Source of the DNA: a virus
Length of the DNA: 20,189 nt
IMG/VR virus record: IMGVR_UViG_3300025887_000192
Span: 1-20,189 of that record
Direction: 5' to 3' (one strand)
Shown here: positions 1,835 to 14,468 of the stretch, in pieces
How positions within the stretch are numbered: position 1 is the first letter of the stretch
How the letters are laid out: every line of letters begins with the position of its first letter
The notes under the pieces: model-generated
What the model was told of the DNA's origin: nothing
Database searches by the model: none
Seen by the model: only the letters and a program-made list of their open reading frames with translations
Translations under genes and position numbers: made by a program

Positions 1835-2547
1835 TCGATTTTAAGACCCATATAGAGCTTTTTAAGCAGTTTAATTCAGAAAATGACATAGATGTATATC
1901 TGAATAAATTGGAGCCGTTAGAAAGGCTTAAAATGTCTCGGCTCATAAGGGAAACTTATCCCATAAGTGAGAAAGCAGAGGTTAGTGACTACATAAAAGA
2001 GAAATTTAGCGTCACCTATGGTGTTGAGCAAGCCGTATTGGGTCAGTTTATTATGCTTGAGCAGATAATTACAGGAAAAACAAAGTTTACTAGCGAGAAT
2101 CAAAGGGATTTAGAATTCGCTAAACTAATCCTTCGACCTAAACACCATAAGGAGTTTGATAATGAAAACCCCGATGACGAAAAGCAAAATGAGCAAGATA
2201 TATTGTCATCACCCGTGCAAGATGTTTACAGTGTCGTAAATTTTTATTTAGAAAACAGAGATTATGTTTTGTTCAAGCAATTCTCAGGTGTGTTTTATGA
2301 GATAAACGATGATGAAGAGGATATAGAAGAGGAAGAGAAGGAGAATAAAACAAACGAAAACCTCTTTCATAGCCAATGGTACTGGTATTCTATGGTTAGA
2401 ATGCTAGCCAAGGAAGACATTACTCGATATGATGAGATATATATGCTTAAAATGTCTAAAGTGCTGCCTGAAATGAGCTACATTACTCAAAAAGAAAAGA
2501 TAGACAGAGCTGAGGTTAGAAGGCAAGAATCTATGAATAAATTGTAA
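1831..2547 (+). CDS. Unknown 238-aa protein, possible tail assembly chaperone
   Basis: The start is the ATGA overlap with terL. The protein is helical with no membrane segment. Residues about 65-110 contain VLGQFIMLEQII followed by LEFAKLILRPKHHKEFD. Then comes an asparagine/acid-rich linker, a second helical part, an acidic insertion (DDEEDIEEEEKE, about 161-172) and a conserved-looking C-terminus with SQWYWYSMVRMLAKED and a final helix. A late-operon helical protein ending in a W-rich segment and an L/M-rich helix, upstream of the tape measure gene, fits tail assembly chaperones (gpG/gpGT-like). That is inference from position and texture. No heptameric slippery site was obvious, and the protein is not long enough or of the right type to be a portal, the gene expected here in most phages. 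Confidence 0.4.
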   Translation: MIDFKTHIELFKQFNSENDIDVYLNKLEPLERLKMSRLIRETYPISEKAEVSDYIKEKFSVTYGVEQAVLGQFIMLEQIITGKTKFTSENQRDLEFAKLILRPKHHKEFDNENPDDEKQNEQDILSSPVQDVYSVVNFYLENRDYVLFKQFSGVFYEINDDEEDIEEEEKENKTNENLFHSQWYWYSMVRMLAKEDITRYDEIYMLKMSKVLPEMSYITQKEKIDRAEVRRQESMNKL

Positions 2548-2554
2548 ATTACAA
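2542..2554. promoter_or_regulatory. Intergenic motif TTGTAAATTA, copy 1 (palindromic form)
   Basis: TTGTAAATTA occupies 2542-2551 and is extended to the perfect odd palindrome TTGTAAATTACAA. It overlaps the stop codon of the 238-aa gene (the motif's internal TAA at 2545-2547 is the stop) and lies 13 bases before the next ATG at 2565. It is one of four exact copies, all at gene junctions. The role is unknown: operator, promoter element and RNA processing site are all possible. Confidence 0.5.
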
Positions 2555-2564
2555 AAATGCTGCT

Positions 2565-3002
2565 ATGAACAATCTATCTGATTTTTACCAGTTAGTAAAA
2601 GACTTTTGCACCAATCATAATATGATAAATGAGTTCTTATTCTTAGGGTCTGATGAAGACTTGCAGAACAGAGAATTTAATTACAGAACTATGGTTATGA
2701 TACCGAGCAGCTCTAATGTATCTAGAGATTTAGCTAGACCCATATATACCTTATCATTTGATTGCGCTTTATTAGACAGGTGTATATCCTCAGATGAATT
2801 AGCCTTAGTAAAATCTACAGAAGAAAATCTATTTGTCGTAGGTCAATTCCAAGATTACCTTATACAGCAAGACGAAAACTGCTATATAGACGATGTAGAT
2901 GTTATGAATATGGTTAGCGAGGACGATAATATAACCTCAGCTATGTTCGAAGTTACGGTATCATTCTCTAGAAAAAATTACAATGCAGGTATAGATAACT
3001 AA
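2565..3002 (+). CDS. Hypothetical neck/tail-completion protein (145 aa)
   Basis: I cannot assign this to a named family. It starts with an amphipathic helix (LSDFYQLVKDFCTNHNMINEF). Alternating strands follow (FNYRTMVMIPSS, IYTLSFDCALLD), then a helical part, and a final strand (MFEVTVSFSRKNY). An N-terminal helix followed by a small beta-sheet resembles tail terminator or tail-completion proteins, and it stands directly before an HK97-gp10-like candidate and the tape measure gene, where such proteins are usually encoded. It follows the first long-ish gap (17 bases) of the cluster. The upstream ATG at 2557 opens only a three-codon frame, so 2565 is the start. Its TAA shares the A of the next ATG (TAATG). 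Confidence 0.5.
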   Translation: MNNLSDFYQLVKDFCTNHNMINEFLFLGSDEDLQNREFNYRTMVMIPSSSNVSRDLARPIYTLSFDCALLDRCISSDELALVKSTEENLFVVGQFQDYLIQQDENCYIDDVDVMNMVSEDDNITSAMFEVTVSFSRKNYNAGIDN

Positions 3003-3622
3003 TGTTAAGTCCCCAACAACAGAGAGGAAGACTCAGGGCATTGGTAGTCAGAGAGTTAAGACGATTTGACGTAAAATCCACCTTTAAGTCTATGCTGAAA
3101 GGTAATAATCAGTATGCTAACGGTGGACTAACGCGAAGTATATCTGCGGCAAGGTACGGTAAGATGGTAACTGTGCGATCATCTATTGATGCTCAAACAA
3201 AAATACTAGACAATGTAGTTGTAGAGATAGAGATACCCTGGGGAAGATACGGAGTTAAGCTTGATTCTGAGTACGGTTCATCACAATATGCCGATTCGCA
3301 GATGATCCCTTCATTAGAAGGTCTCGTTAGATGGATAAAGGCTAAAAACATACGTGTAAATTCTTATGTAACCTCTTCACTAAAAAGTGGTGAGAAAAAA
3401 ACATACGGGCCTTACACAGGTATAACGGGTATGAAGATTATGGCTTACCATATTCAACAGAATATTATAGAAGAAAATGAATTAAGAACACGTTACGACT
3501 ACGCGGATGATATTAGACTACAGTTTCAAGATATACTTGAGGTAGCTATAAGTGATTGGGTGGCTGAGATGGCAGAAGACCAATACGTAGATGTGTTAGT
3601 AGAAATAGAAGAAATATATTAA
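3002..3622 (+). CDS. Probable HK97 gp10-like head-tail joining/tail-completion protein
   Basis: The 206-residue product has a basic helical N-terminus (RGRLRALVVRELRRFD). A beta region follows with an IPWGRYGVKLDSEYG loop, then a helix GLVRWIKAKNI, and an ITGMKIMAYHIQQNII helix. The 'L..W...K.I' then 'G....A..I...I' pattern recalls the gp10/tail-component family that joins the head-proximal tail end to the head, though my recognition is of the general pattern only. The C-terminus is helical and acidic. It starts in a TAATG overlap and ends one base before the tape measure gene, so it belongs to the same coupled set. It could also be a neck protein of another fold. Confidence 0.45.
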   Translation: MLSPQQQRGRLRALVVRELRRFDVKSTFKSMLKGNNQYANGGLTRSISAARYGKMVTVRSSIDAQTKILDNVVVEIEIPWGRYGVKLDSEYGSSQYADSQMIPSLEGLVRWIKAKNIRVNSYVTSSLKSGEKKTYGPYTGITGMKIMAYHIQQNIIEENELRTRYDYADDIRLQFQDILEVAISDWVAEMAEDQYVDVLVEIEEIY

Positions 3623-3623
3623 G

Positions 3624-6600
3624 ATGGCTAAAGGAAAAGGAGATGCAACTCTCGGTAAGTTAAGCAAGAGCTTAGGCTTAATTAATAGCGAACTACAAAC
3701 CATTCAGCGTGGTATTCAGTTGATGCGTGAGGCAGGTAAAAGTGCCAAGCAAATCTATACTGAATATGGTAAGCAGTTAGAAAAACTTATCCAAGATGAG
3801 GCTAAGTTAAACGAAGAGATAGAGGAGAGAAAAGAACTCGTAAAAAACGAATCAGACACTCTAGCTAAGTATAACACTCTCCAAAGAAAGTCTACTAAGG
3901 AAAGAAAAGATGCGTTAAAACAGCTTTCCGATATTGAACTCAAAGAGTACAAGAAGTCAGAGAATGTAAAAAACTCTGGGTTAAAAGCCGATAAGAGAAG
4001 AAAACTTGCTGCGTTAAAAGCAAACGACAAGCTTGAGCTTCAAAAAATACGTTCATCTAAATTAAGCACAACTAAACGTTTAGAAGCCGAACTAGCTGTA
4101 CTTAACCGTATTCAAAGAAGGTATAAGAAAAGCTCAAAAGAATACAAAGACGCTGAGACTTTAAAAGTAAAAGCTCAAGAAAACGCTCTTAAGGCTAGAG
4201 AGAAAAACATAAAAAAATACCGTGATTCAAGACCAAAAGAAGCTGCCGATGTTGGTGGTGGATTCGCTGCTAACCTAAGAAAAGGTTTCTCCGGCTCTGA
4301 GCTTGGTCGCTCTATCGGTCGTATCACAGGTATTGGTACAGCTGTAGAAGTCTTTCGTGGTATTCTTAACGGTGTTAAACAAGCTTTAGTAGGTTCATTC
4401 AAGGCAGCTGTAGACTTTGAGGCACAACTAGCGCAGCTACAAGCTGTTACTGGTATTAACAACGAGGAACTTTCTAGGCTAGAAAAAAACGTACTTAATG
4501 TTGCGGGTAGTACAAAGTTTACTTCAGAGGAAATTGTACAGCTACAAACAGAACTTGGTAAGTTAGGATTTACCGTTGATGAGATTGAAGGAGCTACACT
4601 TGCCGTGGCGGAAACGGCTCAGGCACTTGGTGAGCAGGTAGGTCCAGTAGCACAAAAGATTGGTCAGATTCTAAACCAATACAACCTTACGGCAGCTGAA
4701 ACGGTTAATGTATCGGATACCCTTGTTAGTGTAATTAACTCTTCGGCACTTTCATTTGAGTCCTTTGGTACAGCCTTGCAGTACATTGGGCCACTTGGTG
4801 CTGAGGTAGGCACAAGCTTTAGAGAGACCTCTACTGCGATGGCTATCTTGGCCGATAACGGTTTTACAGCATCTCGTATTGGTACTGGTCTTCGTGGTAT
4901 TTTAACAGAACTATCTACCACTGGTAAAGACCTTACTACGGTAGTTAAGGAACTCGCGCAAGAAGAGATATCTCTTGGTGAAGCAGTTGACCTTGTCGGT
5001 AAAAGAAATGCAGCACAGCTTATTACCCTTATTGAAAACGTAGATGTATTAGAAGACCTTGAGGGTAAATACTACAATGTAGGTGCAGCAGCTATTGCCT
5101 CGGCACAGCAGATTGATACCTACGCAGGAAACTTAGACCTTTTAAAGTCTGCATTTAACCGTGTTCAGATTGAGTTTGGTAATTTCCTAAAAGTATCGGG
5201 GTTACTACGTACATCGCTAAAGCTACTTGATAGGCAAGGATACGAAACTGCACTTGCTATGGAGTTTTTAGCAGATGTTGATCCTGACAGCTTTTCTGAA
5301 GGATTAGGTGAGGCAGCTGAAAATGCAGTTAAACTTGCTGATGCATCAGGTAAATTTGCAAACAGAGAAGAGATATACGCTAAAGAAGCTACAAAGCTAT
5401 TTAAGGACTCATTAAATCCTTTGCAGTTAGAATATGTAGAAAACCAAGAGCGAATTGCAGAGATAGATGCAATGAACTTACTTACAAAAGGTAGAGCTAA
5501 AGACCTTGGGAAAGAAACAGTCGCTGAATTATTAAATGAAAAGAATGAGCTAATAAACGCTAACAAGAAGAATAGAGAATACGCTGTTACCTCTGAAGAA
5601 AGGCTTTCTACCGAAAAAGAAATTGCTCGTCAGATTGGCCGTCAAGCCGAACAGTTTGTTTTATTTAACGCTCGTAACGATATTGAAACGCAATATGAAG
5701 ATACATTAAAAGGTCTTCAAGAAAGACGTGATAATGAGAATATGAGTCTTCGCGAGGGTCTTTTACTTAGAACTGATATTAACAATAAAGAGAAAGACCT
5801 TAGAGATATAAGAACTGATCAACAAGAGGTTACAACTAAACTTGAAACCACTTTAAAGTCTTTAAGAGCCGAGGGAAGTCCTGAGGAGGTTATCAAAGTA
5901 GCAGAAAGAGAACTTTCTATTGCTCAAGCACGATTAGAACAGTACGATCAAGAGATTACAAACCTAACTAACGTAAACCTTTCTAAAGAAGAGTTATTTG
6001 CTCTTGCACAAAAAGAATATGAATTAGAATTCTCAAGACTTAGAAACTCAATAGCAGAGCGCAAAAATCAATTAAAAGAAGACCAAAAGATACTTGAAAT
6101 ACAAATCAAGACTCGCCAAAATGAGATTGAGAATTTAGCGGTAAAAAAGGAAAATGCTAAAACAGACGAAGAGCGTAAGAAGCTTTCTGAAGAACAATCA
6201 GCTCTTATTGACCAACAAGTAAATGCAGAGAAAGAGAGAGCAGAACTTCAAAAGACTGCTAACTCTGATATACAGGGATACCTAGATAGCGTTAATAAGC
6301 AATTAGACGATCAAGAAAAGCTTTGGAAGGCTGCTGGTTTTTCTACTGATAACTTAAGGATATTAGAAAAGGCTAATGAACGTATGAAGCAAATGACCGC
6401 TTCTGTAGCTGAACTTACTCTAGATTTACCTGAGGCTTTAGATGCGGCAGATAACCTAGCGAAGTCTCTTCAAGATAGATTTGCTGACGTACTTAAGAAC
6501 GGTGGTGTATTAAGCTCAGACGATGAAGATGCAATCAACAAAAGTATAGCAGAAACATTTGCTGGTTTCGACCTTACCGATGATCAGATGCAGGTTATAT

Positions 6601-7499
6601 CTGACTACATATACTCTAACCTCACACCGGGTAAGAAGACTAAGGATGATATAATTAAAAACACTAAAAAGCTTTTAAATGATATCTTCGGAGAGATTGC
6701 AGATGCGGCTAAGGCTTACAATGAAACGGCTTTACAAAATACTACCAACAGATTAAATGCCGAGTTAGATGCAATAAAAAACAGATACAAGGTTGAAGGT
6801 GATATCTTAAAATCACAGTTAGATAATCAGTTAATTACCGAGTCTCAGTTTAGAGCAAAACAAAAAGAACTTAGACAAAAGCAACTTGCTGATGAGAACG
6901 ATATCAATAAACAGATATTTGATGCTCAAAAGAAATCAGACTTGAATATAGTAGCGGCAGAAACAGCTGAAGCTTTATTCTCAAACATACTTAACAACTA
7001 CGAAAAGTATGACTTTACTACTGCTGGTATTTTATCTATACTTAGTACAGCAGCTATTGGAGCAGCAGGAGCTGCTAAAGCTGATGCCATTAGAAGACGT
7101 AAATTCTTCCCTGTAAAATACGAAGAAGGGGGTATGGTTAACGGGCCATCACACGACCAAGGGGGAGTGCCTTTTACTGTTCAAGGTCAAAGTGGATACG
7201 AGATGGAGGGTGGAGAGTTTATTGTAAACAAGAAAGCCGCTGCTATGCATAGAGGTTTGCTTGAAAAGATAAACAGCTCTTACAAAGTTCCTGTTTCGCA
7301 ATCAGCTTATAAATTTGCCTCTGGTGGTATAGTTAACGCTAATGTTAATGAAAGTGTAGATTATCTAAAGGCTATCGCTGAAGCTACAACTTCTACAGCT
7401 ATAAGTACAAGTAAGCCCGTTAGAGCGTTTGTATCAAGTAAAGACTTGAGAGCAAATGAGAATGAGAGAAGATTAAGAGATAGAAACGACAAGATATAA
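3624..7499 (+). CDS. Phage tail tape measure protein
   Basis: At 1291 residues this is the largest gene here. It sets tail length and occupies the tail lumen before ejection. Residues 1-210 are lysine/glutamate-rich coiled coil. The TP901-type core lies at about 255-430 (FKAAVDFEAQLAQLQAVTG, then GFTASRIGTGLRGILTEL). Residues about 640-920 form another long coiled coil. A small hydrophobic/alanine-rich segment lies at about 1134-1155 (ILSILSTAAIGAAGAA). The C-terminal part has the EGGMVNGPSHDQGGVPF and EGGEFIVNKKAAA motifs common to tape measure C-termini. At roughly 0.15 nm per residue, the usual rule, the tail would be about 190 nm long, so a long-tailed virion, probably siphovirus-like since no sheath protein is visible. 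Start ATG is one base after the previous stop; the TAA overlaps the next ATG. Confidence 0.93.
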   Translation: MAKGKGDATLGKLSKSLGLINSELQTIQRGIQLMREAGKSAKQIYTEYGKQLEKLIQDEAKLNEEIEERKELVKNESDTLAKYNTLQRKSTKERKDALKQLSDIELKEYKKSENVKNSGLKADKRRKLAALKANDKLELQKIRSSKLSTTKRLEAELAVLNRIQRRYKKSSKEYKDAETLKVKAQENALKAREKNIKKYRDSRPKEAADVGGGFAANLRKGFSGSELGRSIGRITGIGTAVEVFRGILNGVKQALVGSFKAAVDFEAQLAQLQAVTGINNEELSRLEKNVLNVAGSTKFTSEEIVQLQTELGKLGFTVDEIEGATLAVAETAQALGEQVGPVAQKIGQILNQYNLTAAETVNVSDTLVSVINSSALSFESFGTALQYIGPLGAEVGTSFRETSTAMAILADNGFTASRIGTGLRGILTELSTTGKDLTTVVKELAQEEISLGEAVDLVGKRNAAQLITLIENVDVLEDLEGKYYNVGAAAIASAQQIDTYAGNLDLLKSAFNRVQIEFGNFLKVSGLLRTSLKLLDRQGYETALAMEFLADVDPDSFSEGLGEAAENAVKLADASGKFANREEIYAKEATKLFKDSLNPLQLEYVENQERIAEIDAMNLLTKGRAKDLGKETVAELLNEKNELINANKKNREYAVTSEERLSTEKEIARQIGRQAEQFVLFNARNDIETQYEDTLKGLQERRDNENMSLREGLLLRTDINNKEKDLRDIRTDQQEVTTKLETTLKSLRAEGSPEEVIKVAERELSIAQARLEQYDQEITNLTNVNLSKEELFALAQKEYELEFSRLRNSIAERKNQLKEDQKILEIQIKTRQNEIENLAVKKENAKTDEERKKLSEEQSALIDQQVNAEKERAELQKTANSDIQGYLDSVNKQLDDQEKLWKAAGFSTDNLRILEKANERMKQMTASVAELTLDLPEALDAADNLAKSLQDRFADVLKNGGVLSSDDEDAINKSIAETFAGFDLTDDQMQVISDYIYSNLTPGKKTKDDIIKNTKKLLNDIFGEIADAAKAYNETALQNTTNRLNAELDAIKNRYKVEGDILKSQLDNQLITESQFRAKQKELRQKQLADENDINKQIFDAQKKSDLNIVAAETAEALFSNILNNYEKYDFTTAGILSILSTAAIGAAGAAKADAIRRRKFFPVKYEEGGMVNGPSHDQGGVPFTVQGQSGYEMEGGEFIVNKKAAAMHRGLLEKINSSYKVPVSQSAYKFASGGIVNANVNESVDYLKAIAEATTSTAISTSKPVRAFVSSKDLRANENERRLRDRNDKI

Positions 7500-8062
7500 T
7501 GAGCGACTATAATTTTTACGGCACTAATACTCCCGTTGCATTAAACACGGGGTTGTGTACCGTTACAGATGAAGAGACTATAACTGCTACAAACCCATTA
7601 GGTGCTGCTGGAGATGTGGTTTATATTAAGATAAATGAAACTCGAGGTGTAGTAGTTGTGGTTAAAGATAATCCCAACAGAGGAAAGTTTGATAAGTTTA
7701 TCTATTCAAATGTACCTGCTGTTTCCTCTACCTTTACACCAAGCCTAGCGTATTACTTTGATGCTTCATCAACGCTACTGCATACCAATGTAAGTAGTTA
7801 CAAGATAGAGACCTCAACGGGATTAGCCTTATACTCAGAGAGCTACAGACCTTACAAGACATCGTTTGACTACAACCTTATTGTAGATGATACAAGGAGG
7901 TTTTTTAACGGAGATGTAAAAACACTTATATCTACTACTTGGACGGTGTTTAAAGACAGCTGTGATGACTTAGCGTACCTTGTAGCTTTTGGTGGCGATA
8001 GCATCATAACACTAAACAACAAGTTTAAGTCTTCTTTAGAGTTTAAAATAGCAACTAGATAA
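7499..8062 (+). CDS. Hypothetical beta-rich tail protein (187 aa)
   Basis: The protein lies between the tape measure and the large tail-tip gene, joined to both by TAATG overlaps. It has no signal peptide or membrane segment. The sequence is rich in V, T, S, N and Y, with repeated short strands (DVVYIKINETRGVVVVVKD, LAYYFDASSTLL), and contains no diagnostic motif I recognise. In siphoviruses the gene right after the tape measure commonly encodes the distal tail protein, so that is the leading guess. A small adaptor of the tail tip is equally possible. Expression level and function cannot be read from the sequence. Confidence 0.5.
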   Translation: MSDYNFYGTNTPVALNTGLCTVTDEETITATNPLGAAGDVVYIKINETRGVVVVVKDNPNRGKFDKFIYSNVPAVSSTFTPSLAYYFDASSTLLHTNVSSYKIETSTGLALYSESYRPYKTSFDYNLIVDDTRRFFNGDVKTLISTTWTVFKDSCDDLAYLVAFGGDSIITLNNKFKSSLEFKIATR

Positions 8063-10767
8063 TGGTTTTTAAATTAGAGATAAGCAGAGATAATTCTACT
8101 TTTTTTGAAGTTGATTTATTTCCAAACCCTCAGCTAGAATATAATGTAGACTTCTATGACAGCTTAGAGCCGGGTAAGATACGTCTGCCTTTTTCTAGCT
8201 CAATGAAGATACCTATGACTACTCTGAATATGAGTGCTTCTAGGTTTAATTACAATCCATTAGTAGACACGCAAGACCTGTTTCCTAAAGACCCTTTATT
8301 CTTTAAGATTACTGTGTTTGGATCGTCAAACGTAAATCTAGAAGGATTGCTTAATGTTCAGGCGTTTGAGTATTTATCTGACGAGCCGTATATAGATGTA
8401 AATTTAGATGACTATGTAAGCAAGTACATTAGTGATTTAAAAGACACTACTATAGCAGATGTTTATAATGCCGATACAAGTTCATACGGAACTTACTATC
8501 GTCAAGACAATGACTTCGTAAGGTTTTTTATTCCTGCTAGCTCAGCATTAAATCCTGGTGAAGCTGGTGTTATAGGTCAAAACCCTGTAGATAAACCAAT
8601 TATATTTCCATACATAGACTTCTGTAACGATGTAGATGGGAAGTTTGGGTATGGAGAAAGACAGTTTACCGAGTACGGTACGGGTATGGATAGAGCGGGT
8701 ATTGTACCTGTGTTTTCTGTAAAAAACTTTTTAACTACACTGGGGTACTGGCTAACGGCTCAAGGATTTAGCACTCGTGTAGACAGTAAGTTATTTGCGT
8801 TAAACTACGCTGAGGCTATACCAGACTTTGAAGCTGAGAAGCTACAGATGCTTATTCCTTGTAAGCTTGAAGCTGATGTAAATACAAACACTAGAGAGTT
8901 TTTCCTTCGTCAAGCACCGTTTTGGGCAGGTACAAATGAAAGCTTAACGGGAAATAAAACTCTTGACCAAGTAGATAAAGAGTTTATATCCAATTACTTT
9001 TGGAATTCAGAAACTTTTGGTAATTATGGTGCGTCTACTACAGACCCTGAGACAGGTTTAATTACACCCGTAACAACTAAAACAGATTACGGTCTAGATG
9101 CAACAAACGCTGCGTATCCAAACGATTTAGCCTTTGGCTATGAAAGAGGCTATTTTGCTCCTTTTATGTCTTTCAATGCAGGGATGGCTTTTAACTCTGG
9201 CAACGCCTCGGCTGTTGTAACTAATATGGATTTTGAAATACCTGTTATTGGTGAAGACGGTCTAACTTATCAAATAGATGTAGCAGACCCAAATAGCACA
9301 ATGACCTTTGGTATATTCATTGGTGTATGGGAGAATGGTGAGATGGTTAAGAAGTTAAGGTTAGAGGACTCAACTCAAACAGCTATTGAGCTTTCTATAT
9401 CAGATGCAATACCTCAAAGAGGAAGCTCTCAAAAGGTATGGGTCAGTGGAAGTACCGATTATCATTTCTTTGAAGACAATAGTTACAGAAGACCAGTGGT
9501 GTTTGCACCAAGTGTTCAGAATGTAGAAGATGAGCTTAGATGGGTACTTGAAGACGAGCTATTCCTACCTAGCGATACCGATATAGAAATCTCTGGTGAG
9601 AGTAGATACGGTATTAACTATTTCATTGAACCACTACAAGGAGAGGTTGTAGCCCGTGTAGCCGACAACTATGTTAATCAAGGAACTGGTAACAACAGAA
9701 GAAAAGAAGCTATATCTACGATAGCAAATACCTATACTACAGAAGATGTTAGAAAGGCTATTACTAGAACTGAGGACTACGCACAGTTAAATATTAAGTT
9801 TTTAGCCAATGCAAACTTCAATCCTTACTTTGTAGATGACGTTTATAATATTTATGAGTCTCTACAAAACACAGCTACCCTTACTCCATACGATGTATTA
9901 TTAGGTATATGTAAAAGATTTAATTGTGGAATCTATTACGAGAAAGTAGGTAGTCAAAACGTACTAAGGATAGACCCGCTTCATTTGATGAGAAGCGGTA
10001 ATCAAGATATAAACGACTTAGTAGATGACCTTAAGTCTGTAAAGGTATACCTTGGAGGTGACAAAGTCAAGGATTTGACAATAAATAATAAAGATTACGG
10101 ACTTTATTTTGACGATGAGTACGATAAAGATATCACTATAGGTAGCACTACTCAAGAGATAAACGCAGATGGTGTATCTGATTTAGTTATAGATTTTAAA
10201 TCTTCAGTGTACTATAAGTCAGTGTGTGGCGAAGCATTATTCCAACCAGAGAATGATAACCTTATAAACGGTATTGTCTCTTCTAACGAAGTTTCTTTTA
10301 CGCCTAACTTGTTTACAAAACATCAGGATATTGGGCTGAGATTTGCTTATGTAGATAAACCCCTCTTCAACACAATAATCAAAAAACCTTTTGTAGTTAA
10401 TAGTGAGGCTAGACCTAATATACTCACGATAACTCAAAGGATATATAAGAACTTTGCAATAATGCCTTTTAACGGTAGATTGTTTCACTACAATACTCAA
10501 GGGTGGAATCTACTAGCTGAGGACAAAGACGGTAACACAACCGACTACTACACCTTCTATACAGATAACGAAAAGATAAAGTATTCTAATCGTCCTACTA
10601 TAGAATTTAATATGGTACTACAAACTTCAGAGCTTGCGTCTTTAGACTTTTTCTTCAAGACTTTAGGATCAACTAGAATAAATCAGTCTGAGATATTAGT
10701 AAAGAGTGCAGAGGGTGAAGTCTTTGAAGACTACGCTTACTTGACTATTAAAGGATTACTACAATAA
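8062..10767 (+). CDS. Large tail tip/baseplate hub-like protein (901 aa)
   Basis: A 901-residue soluble beta-rich protein directly downstream of the tape measure region, where Dit/Tal or hub proteins are encoded. The N-terminus (LEISRDNSTFFEVDLFPNP) and the KIRLPFSSSMKIPMT stretch look like an adaptor that packs on the tail tube end. Around residues 605-635, TPYDVLLGICKRFNCGIYY followed by LRIDPLHLM resembles the 'helix plus strand' segment found in phage hub proteins, where a helical stretch precedes a sheet domain. No peptidase or lysozyme motif was found. The gene starts in a TAATG overlap, and its stop at 10765-10767 directly abuts motif copy 2. The assignment to the tail tip is good by context; the exact role is inference. 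Confidence 0.7.
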   Translation: MVFKLEISRDNSTFFEVDLFPNPQLEYNVDFYDSLEPGKIRLPFSSSMKIPMTTLNMSASRFNYNPLVDTQDLFPKDPLFFKITVFGSSNVNLEGLLNVQAFEYLSDEPYIDVNLDDYVSKYISDLKDTTIADVYNADTSSYGTYYRQDNDFVRFFIPASSALNPGEAGVIGQNPVDKPIIFPYIDFCNDVDGKFGYGERQFTEYGTGMDRAGIVPVFSVKNFLTTLGYWLTAQGFSTRVDSKLFALNYAEAIPDFEAEKLQMLIPCKLEADVNTNTREFFLRQAPFWAGTNESLTGNKTLDQVDKEFISNYFWNSETFGNYGASTTDPETGLITPVTTKTDYGLDATNAAYPNDLAFGYERGYFAPFMSFNAGMAFNSGNASAVVTNMDFEIPVIGEDGLTYQIDVADPNSTMTFGIFIGVWENGEMVKKLRLEDSTQTAIELSISDAIPQRGSSQKVWVSGSTDYHFFEDNSYRRPVVFAPSVQNVEDELRWVLEDELFLPSDTDIEISGESRYGINYFIEPLQGEVVARVADNYVNQGTGNNRRKEAISTIANTYTTEDVRKAITRTEDYAQLNIKFLANANFNPYFVDDVYNIYESLQNTATLTPYDVLLGICKRFNCGIYYEKVGSQNVLRIDPLHLMRSGNQDINDLVDDLKSVKVYLGGDKVKDLTINNKDYGLYFDDEYDKDITIGSTTQEINADGVSDLVIDFKSSVYYKSVCGEALFQPENDNLINGIVSSNEVSFTPNLFTKHQDIGLRFAYVDKPLFNTIIKKPFVVNSEARPNILTITQRIYKNFAIMPFNGRLFHYNTQGWNLLAEDKDGNTTDYYTFYTDNEKIKYSNRPTIEFNMVLQTSELASLDFFFKTLGSTRINQSEILVKSAEGEVFEDYAYLTIKGLLQ

Positions 10768-10777
10768 TTGTAAATTA
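10768..10777. promoter_or_regulatory. Intergenic motif TTGTAAATTA, copy 2
   Basis: The decamer begins on the base after the stop codon of the tail tip gene and ends five bases before the ATG at 10783. It is flanked so that TTGTA and TACAA form 5-bp inverted arms around AATTAA. If it is a promoter core, the mRNA from here would be leaderless or nearly so. It stands at the switch from tail genes to capsid genes. Confidence 0.5.
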
Positions 10778-10782
10778 ATACA

Positions 10783-11175
10783 ATGGCTACATACAACGAC
10801 TACCCACAATCTGCTACTAACAACGCTAAAAAAGTTCTTGAGTGGAAGAAGAAACACGGCAAAGAAGTTAAAGGAATGACTTCTGTGGGCTGGACTCGTG
10901 CAAACCAATTAGCATCAAGAAGAAAACTATCATATGAGACTATTGCTAGAATGGCTGCGTTTAATCGTCATAGAAAGAATGCTGCGATTGACCCTAAGTA
11001 TAAGGACACGCCTTGGAAAGATAGAGGCTATGTTGCTTGGCTTGGTTGGGGAGGAACAAGCGGTGTTAACTGGGCAATTAGAAAAGCTGAGTCTATACGA
11101 AAAGGAACAGTTAAGGCAAGTGCGGATGTGGCTAACGTCCCGTGGGGTGACCGTAAAATCAAGGATAAAAAATAA
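10783..11175 (+). CDS. Conserved phage morphogenesis-associated domain protein (130 aa)
   Basis: The product is one small, basic, helical domain. Its pattern (YPQSATNNAKKVLEWKKKHG, GWTRANQLASRRKLSYETIARMAAFNRHRKN, then YVAWLGWGGTSGVNWAIRK) is one I recognise as a recurring phage domain of unknown function, seen either alone or attached to head-maturation protease or related head proteins. Here it is a separate gene just upstream of the protease-scaffold, which matches that association. The tail is lysine-rich (DRKIKDKK). No catalytic residues can be assigned. A 92-codon frame overlapping its 3' half is a shadow. It starts shortly after motif copy 2 and is followed by a 38-base A/T-rich gap. 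Confidence 0.7.
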   Translation: MATYNDYPQSATNNAKKVLEWKKKHGKEVKGMTSVGWTRANQLASRRKLSYETIARMAAFNRHRKNAAIDPKYKDTPWKDRGYVAWLGWGGTSGVNWAIRKAESIRKGTVKASADVANVPWGDRKIKDKK

Positions 11176-11213
11176 CTACAACGGTTTTTTTGACAGATTT
11201 AAAATAAAATAAA

Positions 11214-12263
11214 ATGGATAAGTTACCATTATTTGATATATCATTAGAAGACATCGCTCAAGGGATGTACAAGATTTCTCTTGTAGACAAGCCCGCTATT
11301 GAGGAAGACTTTATTCACTTCAATGAAGTTGAGAAAGTACAGATGTTTGCTGATGAAAAGAAGAAAGAGGTTGTAGGGCCTATTATGATTCCTAATAAGG
11401 AGATCCTACGATTCTCACCCGATATGGGATACTACTATGTACGATTCACTGAGGAGACTATTCAGCAAATTATGTACAAGTATTCTAAGGAAGGACTATT
11501 TAACGCATTTGGTATTAACCACTCCTACGATACTGATGAGGTGGTTATGCTTGAAGTTTGGACTAAAGAGAGTGATAACGATAAGTCAGTAGACTATGGT
11601 TATAGCTTACCAAACGGAACCGTATTCGTAAAGGCAAAGATTGAGTCTGACGAATTATTTACTGCAATTGAAAATGGAGAGATTAATGGTTTCTCTATTG
11701 AGATTAAAGCGGATATTAAACCAACAATTAATAACGAAGAACAAATGAATGAATTTGCTTTCGCCAAAGAACTTGGTAAGTTAGAGGCTCAATTTGAGGC
11801 TATGATGAACAAGTACGAGGCAAGAATTGAGGCTTTGGAGAACGAGAATAACTCGCTCTTGGAAGTTATGACATCTTTTGAAGAAAAGTTCGCTGGCGTT
11901 GAAGACTTAAAGTCTGCCGTTGAAATGATTCAAAAGCACATCGAGTCTATGGGCACATCTGAAGAAAAAGAGATGGCTGAAGACAAAGATGAAGAAAAAG
12001 AAGAAATGGCTTCTGATGATAAAGAAGAGGAAATGACTTCTGACGAAGAAGAAATGGCCTCTGAAAAAGAAGAAGAGGTTATGAAGGAAGAAGAGAAATA
12101 CTCTGCTGAAGAAGAAACTAACGAGTTGGAAGTTGAGGAGCAATTTGCTGCTGAACAAAAAGCTGAGGAAGTATCTGAATCTGTAGAAGATAAGACAGTT
12201 GTTTTTGATGCCATCACTCCAGAGAAGATGGATATCATCAATAACTTCTTCAACCGTAAGTAA
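11214..12263 (+). CDS. XkdF-type prohead protease fused to acidic scaffold domain
   Basis: The 349-residue product combines two functions of procapsid assembly. Residues 1-170 match the putative phage serine protease XkdF type: an N-terminal YKISLVDKPAIEEDF segment, H103 in GINHSYD and S161 in NGFSIE as probable catalytic histidine and serine. The fold and mechanism are known only by family analogy. Residues about 176-245 form a coiled coil (helical KLEAQFEAMMNKYEARIEAL). Residues about 250-301 are a strongly acidic repeat with recurring EEM(A/T)S units, and the C-terminus ends in a helix (PEKMDIINNFFNRK) that may dock on the capsid protein. Together these suit an internal scaffold that the protease cuts away during maturation. 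It is directly upstream of the capsid gene. The 38-base leader is A-rich (TAAAATAAAATAAAATG). Confidence 0.85.
   Translation: MDKLPLFDISLEDIAQGMYKISLVDKPAIEEDFIHFNEVEKVQMFADEKKKEVVGPIMIPNKEILRFSPDMGYYYVRFTEETIQQIMYKYSKEGLFNAFGINHSYDTDEVVMLEVWTKESDNDKSVDYGYSLPNGTVFVKAKIESDELFTAIENGEINGFSIEIKADIKPTINNEEQMNEFAFAKELGKLEAQFEAMMNKYEARIEALENENNSLLEVMTSFEEKFAGVEDLKSAVEMIQKHIESMGTSEEKEMAEDKDEEKEEMASDDKEEEMTSDEEEMASEKEEEVMKEEEKYSAEEETNELEVEEQFAAEQKAEEVSESVEDKTVVFDAITPEKMDIINNFFNRK
11961..12116 (+). repeat. Degenerate acidic repeat in scaffold domain
   Basis: Residues 250-301 of the protease-scaffold consist mostly of E, K, D, M, A and S. An imperfect unit recurs as KEEMASDD, EEEMTSDE and EEEMASEK, with a related KEMAEDKD before it. 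The DNA is GAA/GAG-rich purine on the + strand, which produces long open frames on the opposite strand that are not genes. Such tracts tend to vary in length between relatives. Confidence 0.75.
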
Positions 12264-12266
12264 TTA

Positions 12267-12276
12267 TTGTAAATTA
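12267..12276. promoter_or_regulatory. Intergenic motif TTGTAAATTA, copy 3 (upstream of capsid gene)
   Basis: The decamer starts three bases after the protease-scaffold stop codon and ends 34 bases before the capsid ATG, leaving room for a short A/T-rich leader. Unlike the other three copies it lacks clear TTGT/ACAA arms, which suggests that the decamer itself, not a hairpin, is the conserved unit. Confidence 0.5.
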
Positions 12277-12310
12277 AGTAAAACGAATCATTTTTTAAAA
12301 CTAATATAAA

Positions 12311-13258
12311 ATGGCAAATAATATGAATTTCGGTGTTACAGGTGTAACTGGTGATTGGGGAGACCGCAGACCAGACTTGTTTATCGACACAATGGTAAAA
12401 TCAGCAGCTGTGCTGAACCGTTTCTCTATCGTTGATGGAGTAAAAAGTAAATTGAACGTACCAATCTTCTCTGTATCTGCTCAAGCAGGTGACGGTGACG
12501 GATTTGTTGCTGGTGCTAACTGTTCATTCGATGAGACTTTCGATGCTGCAGTTACTGAAAAAGAGATGACTGTTCAAACTTTCCACTGGGGTTTCAAAAA
12601 CTGTAAGGATGCTCTAGAGTCTTCTTACCGTGGTTTGATGCTTAAGAAAGGTCAGTTGAACCCAGAAACATTGGATGCTGAATTCCGTTCTTGGATCTTC
12701 GACCGTTTCGCTAAATTAGCTGCTCAGAAAGCTTTAGTTCAAGCTAACACTGAACTTCTTGCTGAAATGAAGTCTGGTGGCGATGCTGTACCAGCTGCTC
12801 AAGTTCTTGATATCGGTGCTACTGCTATCTCTTCTGCTAACATCTTAACTCATATGGAAGATGCATACGAGAAAATGTCTGCTGTAATGGTTGCTGCTGT
12901 ATACGGTGATGCTGATCGTGAGTTCAAGCCTGCTTACTTCTTAGGAAGCGTTGCTTACCAATCTTACCAAATCGCTATCGCTAACAAGCACACAACTACT
13001 CCTGAAGGTATTATCAAAGGTGAGATTCCAACATACTACGGTATGGAAGTAATCCATATGCCATCTTTGAGTGCTGACCACTTCTTCTTGTCTGCTCCAA
13101 GCAACTTGGTATTGTTGACAGATAACTACAATGATACTGGTGCTATCGGTAACGAATACGAAGCTAAAGAGCAAGCAGAATACTTGTTCGGTCGTTTCAA
13201 GTTAGGTTTCGATTACTACAAGGGTGAGGAAATGGTTCTCGCTTACGATGCTGCCTAA
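12311..13258 (+). CDS. Major capsid protein, HK97-fold-like
   Basis: The 315-residue product builds the icosahedral shell. It follows the protease-scaffold directly, as expected. The N-terminus is flexible and glycine-rich. The segment with FHWGFKNCKDALESSYRG and the helix FRSWIFDRFAKLAAQKALV could be the E-loop/spine-helix region. The C-terminal part (KPAYFLGSVAYQSYQIA, then IPTYYGMEVIHMPSL and NLVLLTDNYND) has the A-domain texture of HK97-fold capsid proteins from Bacteroidetes phages. Arginine is coded almost entirely by CGT/CGC (7 of 8), and TTC, AAC and GCT are frequent, unlike the AGA-rich neighbours, which fits very high expression. The leader is A-rich with no Shine-Dalgarno sequence. 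A minor alternative is another abundant head protein, but order and codon use favour capsid. Confidence 0.85.
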   Translation: MANNMNFGVTGVTGDWGDRRPDLFIDTMVKSAAVLNRFSIVDGVKSKLNVPIFSVSAQAGDGDGFVAGANCSFDETFDAAVTEKEMTVQTFHWGFKNCKDALESSYRGLMLKKGQLNPETLDAEFRSWIFDRFAKLAAQKALVQANTELLAEMKSGGDAVPAAQVLDIGATAISSANILTHMEDAYEKMSAVMVAAVYGDADREFKPAYFLGSVAYQSYQIAIANKHTTTPEGIIKGEIPTYYGMEVIHMPSLSADHFFLSAPSNLVLLTDNYNDTGAIGNEYEAKEQAEYLFGRFKLGFDYYKGEEMVLAYDAA

Positions 13259-13276
13259 TCATAATTAAATAATAAC

Positions 13277-13297
13277 GGAGGGGCCTGGTGCCTCTCC
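13277..13297 (+). terminator. GC-rich hairpin after the capsid gene
   Basis: GGAGGGGC and GCCTCTCC pair as an 8-bp stem (one G-U in RNA) around a 5-base loop, in an otherwise A/T-rich 58-base gap. No T-run follows, so it is a poor intrinsic terminator. It may instead stabilise the 3' end of capsid mRNA, pause polymerase or serve as a processing site between capsid and tail-tube transcripts. Confidence 0.5.
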
Positions 13298-13316
13298 ATT
13301 TAATACCTTATAAATA

Positions 13317-13865
13317 ATGGCTTGTAATACTGTAATTGCTGGAGTTTCTTACTCTTGTGATGACCTAGCCCTAGGAGGGCTTACAAAAATCTACATTGGC
13401 GATAAAGCTAACTTAACTGCAGGTGTTACACCTTTGGTTTCTGTAGCTTCTAATGTAGTTACTATTACTCCTGCAACTTCCGACCTTCTTGCTGATGGCG
13501 ATGTGTTTGAATTGGAGTTTAACATCAAAGACGGCTTCTCTGCTTTCACTGATGTAAAGACTATCTCTGATGGTTCTGTTTCTGCTGTACCTACTATCAC
13601 TGTAGAGATTCCTAAGATGTCTGGTACTCACCGTGATGTATTAGAAGAGTTGGCTAACCCAAATGCTGAGATCGTAGCTTTCATTGAAACTGCTGCTGGT
13701 ACTCACCACTTAGTTGGTTTTGACTACGGACTATTTGTTTCTACTGTTGATGGTGCTTCAGGTGCTGCTCGTGGTGACAAAAACCGTTACCAATTGACTT
13801 TGACTGGCGAGCAGTCTAGTCTTGCTTACGACATCACAGACGCTGAGTGGACTGACGTTGCTTAA
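13317..13865 (+). CDS. Major tail tube-like protein (copy 1)
   Basis: The 182-residue beta-rich protein is a probable tail tube subunit. It begins MACNTVIAG and has a CDDLALGGLTKIYIG segment, then FELEFNIKDGFSAFTD and EIVAFIETAAGTHHLVGFDYG, and ends with a strand-rich TLTGEQSSLAYDI part. It is clearly paralogous to the gene at 14459: both share Cx5-6GG(L/I)xK near the N-terminus, a (F/H)NxKDGxxxFT core and an IVA(F/V) strand at comparable positions. Location just after the capsid gene and good codon use (GCT, ACT, CGT) suit an abundant structural protein. The start is the ATG after a 58-base gap containing a hairpin. A minor capsid decoration protein is a less likely alternative. Confidence 0.65.
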   Translation: MACNTVIAGVSYSCDDLALGGLTKIYIGDKANLTAGVTPLVSVASNVVTITPATSDLLADGDVFELEFNIKDGFSAFTDVKTISDGSVSAVPTITVEIPKMSGTHRDVLEELANPNAEIVAFIETAAGTHHLVGFDYGLFVSTVDGASGAARGDKNRYQLTLTGEQSSLAYDITDAEWTDVA

Positions 13866-13875
13866 TAAGCAAAAC

Positions 13876-13885
13876 TTGTAAATTA
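13876..13885. promoter_or_regulatory. Intergenic motif TTGTAAATTA, copy 4
   Basis: The decamer lies 10 bases after the first tube gene's stop and is enclosed by CTTGT/ACAAG arms (13875-13879 and 13888-13892). It ends six bases before the stem of an intrinsic terminator. A promoter here would be terminated at once, so this copy argues for another role, such as an antitermination, pausing or processing signal, or for a regulator-binding site. Confidence 0.45.
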
Positions 13886-13891
13886 ACACAA

Positions 13892-13929
13892 GGGGGGAGA
13901 GTTGATTAATTTCTTCTCTCCCTTTTTTT
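13892..13929 (+). terminator. Rho-independent terminator between tube gene 1 and the homing endonuclease
   Basis: GGGAGAG (13895-13901) pairs with CTCTCCC (13916-13922) across a 14-base loop. The stem can be lengthened by G-U pairs between the three preceding G residues and the first T residues, and it is followed by a run of seven T (13923-13929). It is the only canonical intrinsic terminator in the window. Only 11 bases separate it from the next start codon, so downstream tube and fibre genes depend on read-through. Confidence 0.85.
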
Positions 13930-13936
13930 ATACTTA

Positions 13937-13950
13937 AATTATGGCTTTCA
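13937..13950 (+). repeat. Left copy of 14-bp direct repeat flanking the endonuclease gene
   Basis: The sequence AATTATGGCTTTCA contains the endonuclease ATG (13941-13943). It matches the right copy at 14455-14468 in 13 of 14 positions. The one difference is the first base of the start codon. Confidence 0.8.
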
Positions 13951-14456
13951 TTTACAAAATTAATATTAGTGACAATTTTTACATTGGTCAAACCACTGAT
14001 ATTAATATTAGAATGAAAAACCACATTAGCGAGTTGAAATCAAATAGACATTGTAATAGTTATATGCAAAACGCTTTTAACAAATACAATGATTTCAATT
14101 ACGAAATACTTTTTACTTCTACAGAGAGGTATTTAGACTTGGTTGAACAAGAGTTAATAGATTTATATAAAAGTCAAAAAGGCTTTATGAATCTTATGCT
14201 TTCTGTAAAGACTGCACGAGGAGAAAATCATCCTTGGACTGGGCAAAAACATACTAATGAATCAAAAATAAAAATGTCTATTGCGGCTCGTAAAAGAAAA
14301 AAACCATCCAGAGCTAAAAAGGTTATAGACACCTCTACGGGTAAAGTGTATTGTACCGTTAAAGACGCTGCTAAAAGTGTAAATTATAAAAGTAGAACGC
14401 TTAATGCAATGCTTACGGGTCAGAACCCAAATAAAACTAACTTAAAATATTTATAA
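13941..14456 (+). CDS. Free-standing GIY-YIG homing endonuclease
   Basis: The 171-residue product is a selfish nuclease that would cut alleles lacking the insertion. The N-terminal catalytic domain (about 1-90) shows FIYKI at 3-7 standing for GIY, YIG at 14-16, R24 as the likely catalytic arginine, H28 and a glutamate in VEQELID (E69 or E71) as the metal-binding candidate. A NUMOD3-like DNA-binding segment follows (HPWTGQKHTNESKIKMS, about 95-111), then a basic stretch RKRKKPSRAKK and a NUMOD1/IENR1-like helix-turn-helix (TVKDAAKSVNYKSRTLNAML). GC is about 29% by my count of several lines, lower than the capsid region at about 45%, consistent with a mobile gene. It lies between two paralogous tube genes, 11 bases after a terminator and 2 bases before a TTG start. 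Confidence 0.92.
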   Translation: MAFIYKINISDNFYIGQTTDINIRMKNHISELKSNRHCNSYMQNAFNKYNDFNYEILFTSTERYLDLVEQELIDLYKSQKGFMNLMLSVKTARGENHPWTGQKHTNESKIKMSIAARKRKKPSRAKKVIDTSTGKVYCTVKDAAKSVNYKSRTLNAMLTGQNPNKTNLKYL

Positions 14457-14468
14457 TTTTGGCTTTCA
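14455..14468 (+). repeat. Right copy of 14-bp direct repeat flanking the endonuclease gene
   Basis: The sequence AATTTTGGCTTTCA overlaps the last two bases of the endonuclease stop codon and contains the TTG start (14459-14461) of the second tube gene. It matches the left copy except for T in place of A at the start codon. Confidence 0.8.

Follow-up and report, generated by a model that had tools for sequence, protein, structure and literature searches.

A conserved intergenic decamer as a predicted late core promoter element in a family of flavobacterial phages

The decamer TTGTAAATTA, in the general form T[T/C]GTANATT[A] followed by four bases and AA, is very probably the late core promoter element of a family of flavobacterial phages. 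Judged from sequence comparison, this reading has a probability of roughly 85%, with its starts and message types included. It rests on copies at operon heads in divergent gaps, a copy after a terminator (genomes G017 and G023), a single start phase, absence from early operons, and the lack of a -33/-35 element. The decamer is best explained as the core of a late promoter of a new sequence type; it was not found in the phage literature searched. Little appears to be known about the switch to late genes in phages of Bacteroidetes. The element would provide a sequence-defined late promoter for a whole uncultured marine phage family, with the start base predicted to the single nucleotide, and the motif could be used for annotating late operons in metagenomic contigs.

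In the proposed mechanism, RNA polymerase together with a factor would read a single -7/-10-like element without a -33/-35 element, and RNA synthesis would begin at the A that is the sixth base after the decamer. The principal start would lie at the head of the terminase operon; internal copies would restart transcription before the head-tail, protease, capsid, tail, fibre and portal genes. Three message types would follow from the start position: leaderless (ATG at +1), with a short A-rich leader, or with a 5'-hairpin cap.

The decamer in the window

The window (the whole stretch of DNA analysed, which is the entire public record of 20,189 bases) contains four exact copies of TTGTAAATTA on the plus strand, at 2542, 10768, 12267 and 13876, and none on the minus strand. 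The chance expectation is 0.17 copies, and four were reached in 0 of 100 shuffles; no other 10-mer occurs four times in the window. Six gaps are at least 15 bases long (17, 15, 38, 47, 58 and 75 bp). Four of these hold the decamer, which overlaps the preceding stop codon at one site and follows it by 0, 3 and 10 bases at the others. The preliminary description had reported this number, strand and placement of the copies, and all were reproduced on re-counting. The sites and the features around them are as follows.

2542 to 2551, plus strand: site A decamer, overlapping the stop of the gene at 1831-2547; predicted late promoter element; predicted +1 at 2557, ATG at 2565; family J0, 69 sites
2565 to 3002, plus strand: gene downstream of site A, 145 aa, head-tail region; no family match
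10768 to 10777, plus strand: site B decamer; abuts a stop; predicted +1 at 10783, coinciding with the A of the following ATG (leaderless); family J1, 63 sites, spacing 5 in 54
10783 to 11175, plus strand: gene downstream of site B, 130 aa, phrog_2859, unknown
11214 to 12263, plus strand: protease-like gene, 349 aa; weak match to head maturation protease phrog_34096
12267 to 12276, plus strand: site C decamer, preceding the major capsid protein gene; predicted +1 at 12282, leader of 29 nt; family J2, 52 sites
12311 to 13258, plus strand: putative major capsid protein gene, downstream of site C; weak match to phrog_1623; conserved in 15/15 near-complete relatives
13876 to 13885, plus strand: site D decamer; predicted +1 at 13891, hairpin directly after; families J3/J14/J16/J17
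13891 to 13929, plus strand: site D hairpin and T-run, starting at the predicted +1; 5'-terminal hairpin and/or terminator of upstream transcripts
13941 to 14456, plus strand: GIY-YIG homing endonuclease gene, inserted between site D and the tail gene

The endonuclease insertion (13941-14460) falls precisely on the tail-gene start codon. Where relatives have ATACTTAAATTATGGCTTTCAACTG, the first ATGGCTTTC here opens the endonuclease gene, and TTGGCTTTC remains for the tail gene. The gap behind the capsid gene (13259-13316) holds a hairpin, GGAGGGGCC-TGGT-GCCTCTCC, and no decamer.

Conservation among relatives

A capsid-protein scan yielded 28 relatives and wider scans yielded 173 loci; 10-mers were counted in 99 non-redundant related loci and records (1.55 Mb). 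In the capsid-scan relatives, down to 57% capsid identity, the decamer is found letter for letter at the same junctions and almost exclusively in the sense orientation. These junctions lie before the head-tail gene (A), the protease module (B) and the capsid gene (C), and behind the post-capsid gene (D). In the 99 loci, TTGTAAATTA is the top intergenic 10-mer, with 219 of its 233 copies in intergenic positions; the median total for 10-mers with nine A/T letters is 10.

In near-complete relatives, late and replication genes occupy opposite strands. Each relative carries 3-9 matches to the motif pattern on the late strand and 0-2 on the opposite strand, the TCG lineage (see below) being the exception. 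In the late gaps of all three genome classes, the top-ranking 8-mers are sub-words of the decamer, which do not appear in the top list for early gaps; host-type TTG-N17-23-TAHHTTTG promoters are found 10 times in early gaps and once in late gaps. Minus-strand copies in early genes (G011, G020, G025) were rejected as regulatory sites, as they are the codons C-K-L of a conserved small protein. The only repeated minus-strand decamer (L181:7421-7430, minus strand) encodes an in-frame Cys-Lys-Leu of a conserved early protein of 70 aa; the same gene is present in G011, G012 and G020.

Cultured phages with related portal and helicase genes infect Nonlabens/Persicivirga and Flavobacterium, which fits flavobacterial hosts. 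A terminase search of bacterial genomes for the host gave nothing close. In two such cultured phages, P12024S and FCL-2, the gaps lack the decamer, a point against the late-promoter model; as far as seen, the element is therefore confined to this uncultured family.

In one lineage, TCGTAAATTA replaces TTGTAAATTA at equivalent junctions. G016 and G022 carry TTCGTAAATTATAAAAAG there, in which position 2 of the decamer is changed from T to C, and G016 has it ahead of the terminase operon as well. That all sites changed together argues for a single trans-acting reader with an altered preference. TTG to TCG would be a natural change of specificity, traceable to the reading factor. G016 also contains two near-identical tail-gene cassettes, each with the same TCG promoter copy (L194, 21037-27752, and L195, 31252-37784); the pair is either a duplication or an assembly artefact.

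Predicted start base and message types

The +1 register was taken from the mapped -7 element of F. johnsoniae (T-12 A-11; PMC6847099), which places the predicted +1 on the sixth base after the decamer. At 132 distinct non-leaderless sites, A occupies base 5 after the decamer in 92% and base 6 in 90%; the fraction of A is about 0.3-0.7 in the flanks of these two bases and about 0.3-0.4 one base further on. The spacing from decamer to ATG has a mode of 5 and a floor of 4, except for one site at 2. At the 71 sites with a spacing of 5, the sixth base is the A of the ATG. At D-type sites and at the fibre-gene sites (H), 32 of 32 distinct hairpins begin their stem 0-1 nt after the predicted +1. These hairpins are homologous, with 27 different stem sequences.

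The coincidence at the predicted +1 rests on three independent features: the preference for A, the position of the ATG, and the base of the hairpin. That all three fall on the sixth base suggests that some late mRNAs are leaderless and others are hairpin-capped. A start codon at the RNA 5' end, or no more than 1-2 nt from it, is predicted for sites with a spacing of 4-5. By site, leaderless mRNAs are predicted at B, at a portal-like gene and at E; short leaders are predicted at A (8 nt), C (29 nt) and the terminase operon; hairpin-first mRNAs are predicted at D and H. Leaderless and hairpin-first messages are two testable mRNA designs. It should be noted that leaderless messages are rare in hosts of this type (5.5% in F. 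psychrophilum, PMC9723704), which counts against the late-promoter model. The hairpin at D and H probably also terminates transcripts from upstream. A terminator-like hairpin directly after the element sits uneasily with a promoter role, except where polymerase reads through it; the model is weakest here.

The terminase operon

A looser motif, T[TC]GTANATTN, is present upstream of the terminase operon in 33 of the 40 loci with enough upstream sequence, and once in antisense; the remaining 7 of 40 upstream regions lack the motif as searched, which counts against the late-promoter model. Many of the gaps that hold it are divergent, so that there is no upstream gene whose stop codon or message the motif could serve. 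Some of these sites read TTGTATATTTG, which is TTG plus a complete TAnnTTTG. TATATTTG is present only at some terminase-operon sites; internal sites have TAnATTA. Elsewhere, one decamer copy lies directly behind a terminator hairpin in both G017 and G023.

These sites bear on an alternative in which the decamer acts in RNA. A nuclease would recognise UUGUAAAUUA in late polycistronic RNA and cut five bases downstream, leaving leaderless and hairpin-capped mRNAs. The motif is sense-only and located in gaps near stop codons, as such a signal might be, and its constant phase to the hairpin base and the ATG would suit a cut as well as a start. However, no upstream RNA is expected at the operon-head copies in divergent gaps or at the copy after the terminator. 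The motif also has the register of the host -7 element, up to the complete TTGTATATTTG form at some terminase sites. Cleavage is accordingly considered very unlikely, and the late promoter is the preferred reading.

An inverted repeat, TGAAT-N-ATTCA, is often found just upstream of the terminase-operon motif and is a possible regulator site. Inverted repeats with TATTATAATA-type words form a conserved AT-rich array just upstream of the terminase-operon promoter (L035:290-400, L038:730-830), which may be an origin or packaging site.

Comparison with known promoters

Recognition of extended -10 sigma-70 promoters is confined to a downstream element and a TG-type extension, as would be the case here. 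The arrangement differs in that TTG abuts TA (TTGTA, not TGnTA), and the host group is different. The family-weighted profile consists of a sharp ten-base element and contains no conserved -33/-35 column.

The decamer shares T-12 A-11 and T-8 T-7 with the Bacteroidetes sigma-A promoter (-33 TTTG / -7 TAnnTTTG), and some terminase-operon sites have the complete TAnnTTTG. The preliminary description was correct that the decamer differs from the Bacteroidetes -7 consensus, but it missed this common TA..TT register. The differences are that there is no conserved -33 element (TTTG or TTG, 17-23 nt upstream); that the decamer has A at -6 where the host element has T-6 G-5, and internal sites do not match the -7 form TAHHTTTG; and that G at -10 is tolerated here (TTGTAGATTA variants) and avoided by the host element (PMC6847099). 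The decamer was rejected as the host -7 element itself on the grounds of A-6, the tolerated G at -10 and the missing -33. In F. psychrophilum, the SM5 motif TAnnTTGY is an alternative -7-type element at -12 to -5 (PMC9723704). It is likewise a -7-type element, from a flavobacterium, but the decamer sequence does not match it.

T4 late promoters consist of TATAAATA and depend on gp55, gp33 and the gp45 clamp (PMC2988020). Like these, the decamer is a lone, short, AT-rich element without a -35, placed roughly one helical turn ahead of the (here predicted) start; there are many copies inside the late region, and the DNA just downstream is AT-rich (PMC2988020). Sequence and register differ, the consensus here being T[T/C]GTANATTA and not the 8-bp TATAAATA. 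By this comparison, the decamer would work like a T4 late promoter, with a single downstream element, yet it falls outside that system by sequence.

A phage late activator or repressor could instead bind the decamer as an operator beside ordinary host promoters. The window copies do have the inverted arms noted in the preliminary description, and proteins resembling DnaA domain IV (see below) are plausible DNA binders. The arms at 2542 and 10768, however, vary among relatives; the ACAAG arm at 13876 is common in relatives and broken in G019, G020 and G024. The arms thus appear mostly incidental, and an inverted-repeat operator was rejected on their lack of conservation. There is also no host -33/-7 pair near internal sites, and the element is phased to the start base within one nucleotide, as core elements are. 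An operator is considered very unlikely. An RNA signal for antitermination or associated with termination, with the hairpins behind D and H as its target, fits the stem and T-run found after every D and H copy, but it is exceedingly improbable, as families A, B, C, terminase, portal and E fold weakly and lack a downstream hairpin and the post-capsid hairpin (about 13275-13297) lacks the decamer. Of the roles suggested earlier, promoter core is thus well supported, RNA processing is less likely, and an operator finds no support.

Candidate recognising factors

A sigma-70-like gene is present among the early genes (Sigma70_r4, E = 2.8e-6; PHROG sigma factor, 2.5e-8). In a fold search with a model of moderate confidence, its product matched sigma factors throughout, with region 4 matched best. 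The gene is found in G014 (2791-3525), G018, G019, G021 and G024, and in a strongly diverged form in G016 and G022. It also occurs in L098, which together with one other relative has the terminase closest to that of the window (92-93% identity). A profile search with filters off detected no sigma homolog in G015, G017, G020, G023, G025 and G026 (6 of 13 near-complete genomes), all of which carry the decamer. A phage sigma factor was therefore rejected as the only reader: the reader may be this sigma in some phages only, or a host polymerase altered by another phage protein. Where it is present, the early-encoded sigma-70-like protein is the candidate reader.

The C-terminal tail of this protein, YSxAMSF[LV], is conserved behind a variable linker (L121:2794-3498, minus strand, and homologs). 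It is possibly a clamp-binding peptide, recalling the tail of T4 gp55 (PMC2988020). The candidate sigma differs from gp55 in having both region-2-like and region-4-like parts, and in being missing from roughly half of the near-complete genomes. Among the annotated early genes, neither a gp33 nor a phage clamp was noticed. A form of replication-linked late transcription proper to flavobacterial phages can be imagined, in which a sigma factor with a clamp-binding tail would read TTGTANATTA and the mRNAs would be leaderless or carry a protective hairpin at base 1; this is speculative and rather unlikely.

Proteins with the fold of DnaA domain IV are encoded twice per genome in most relatives of the TTG class, and none were found in the TCG class. 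They were rejected as readers of the decamer; the fold is that of the DnaA box-binding domain, and the decamer is unlike a DnaA box. One such pair is encoded at L121:489-914 and L121:2493-2960, both on the minus strand, and the model of the first matches 3pvp and 1j1v.
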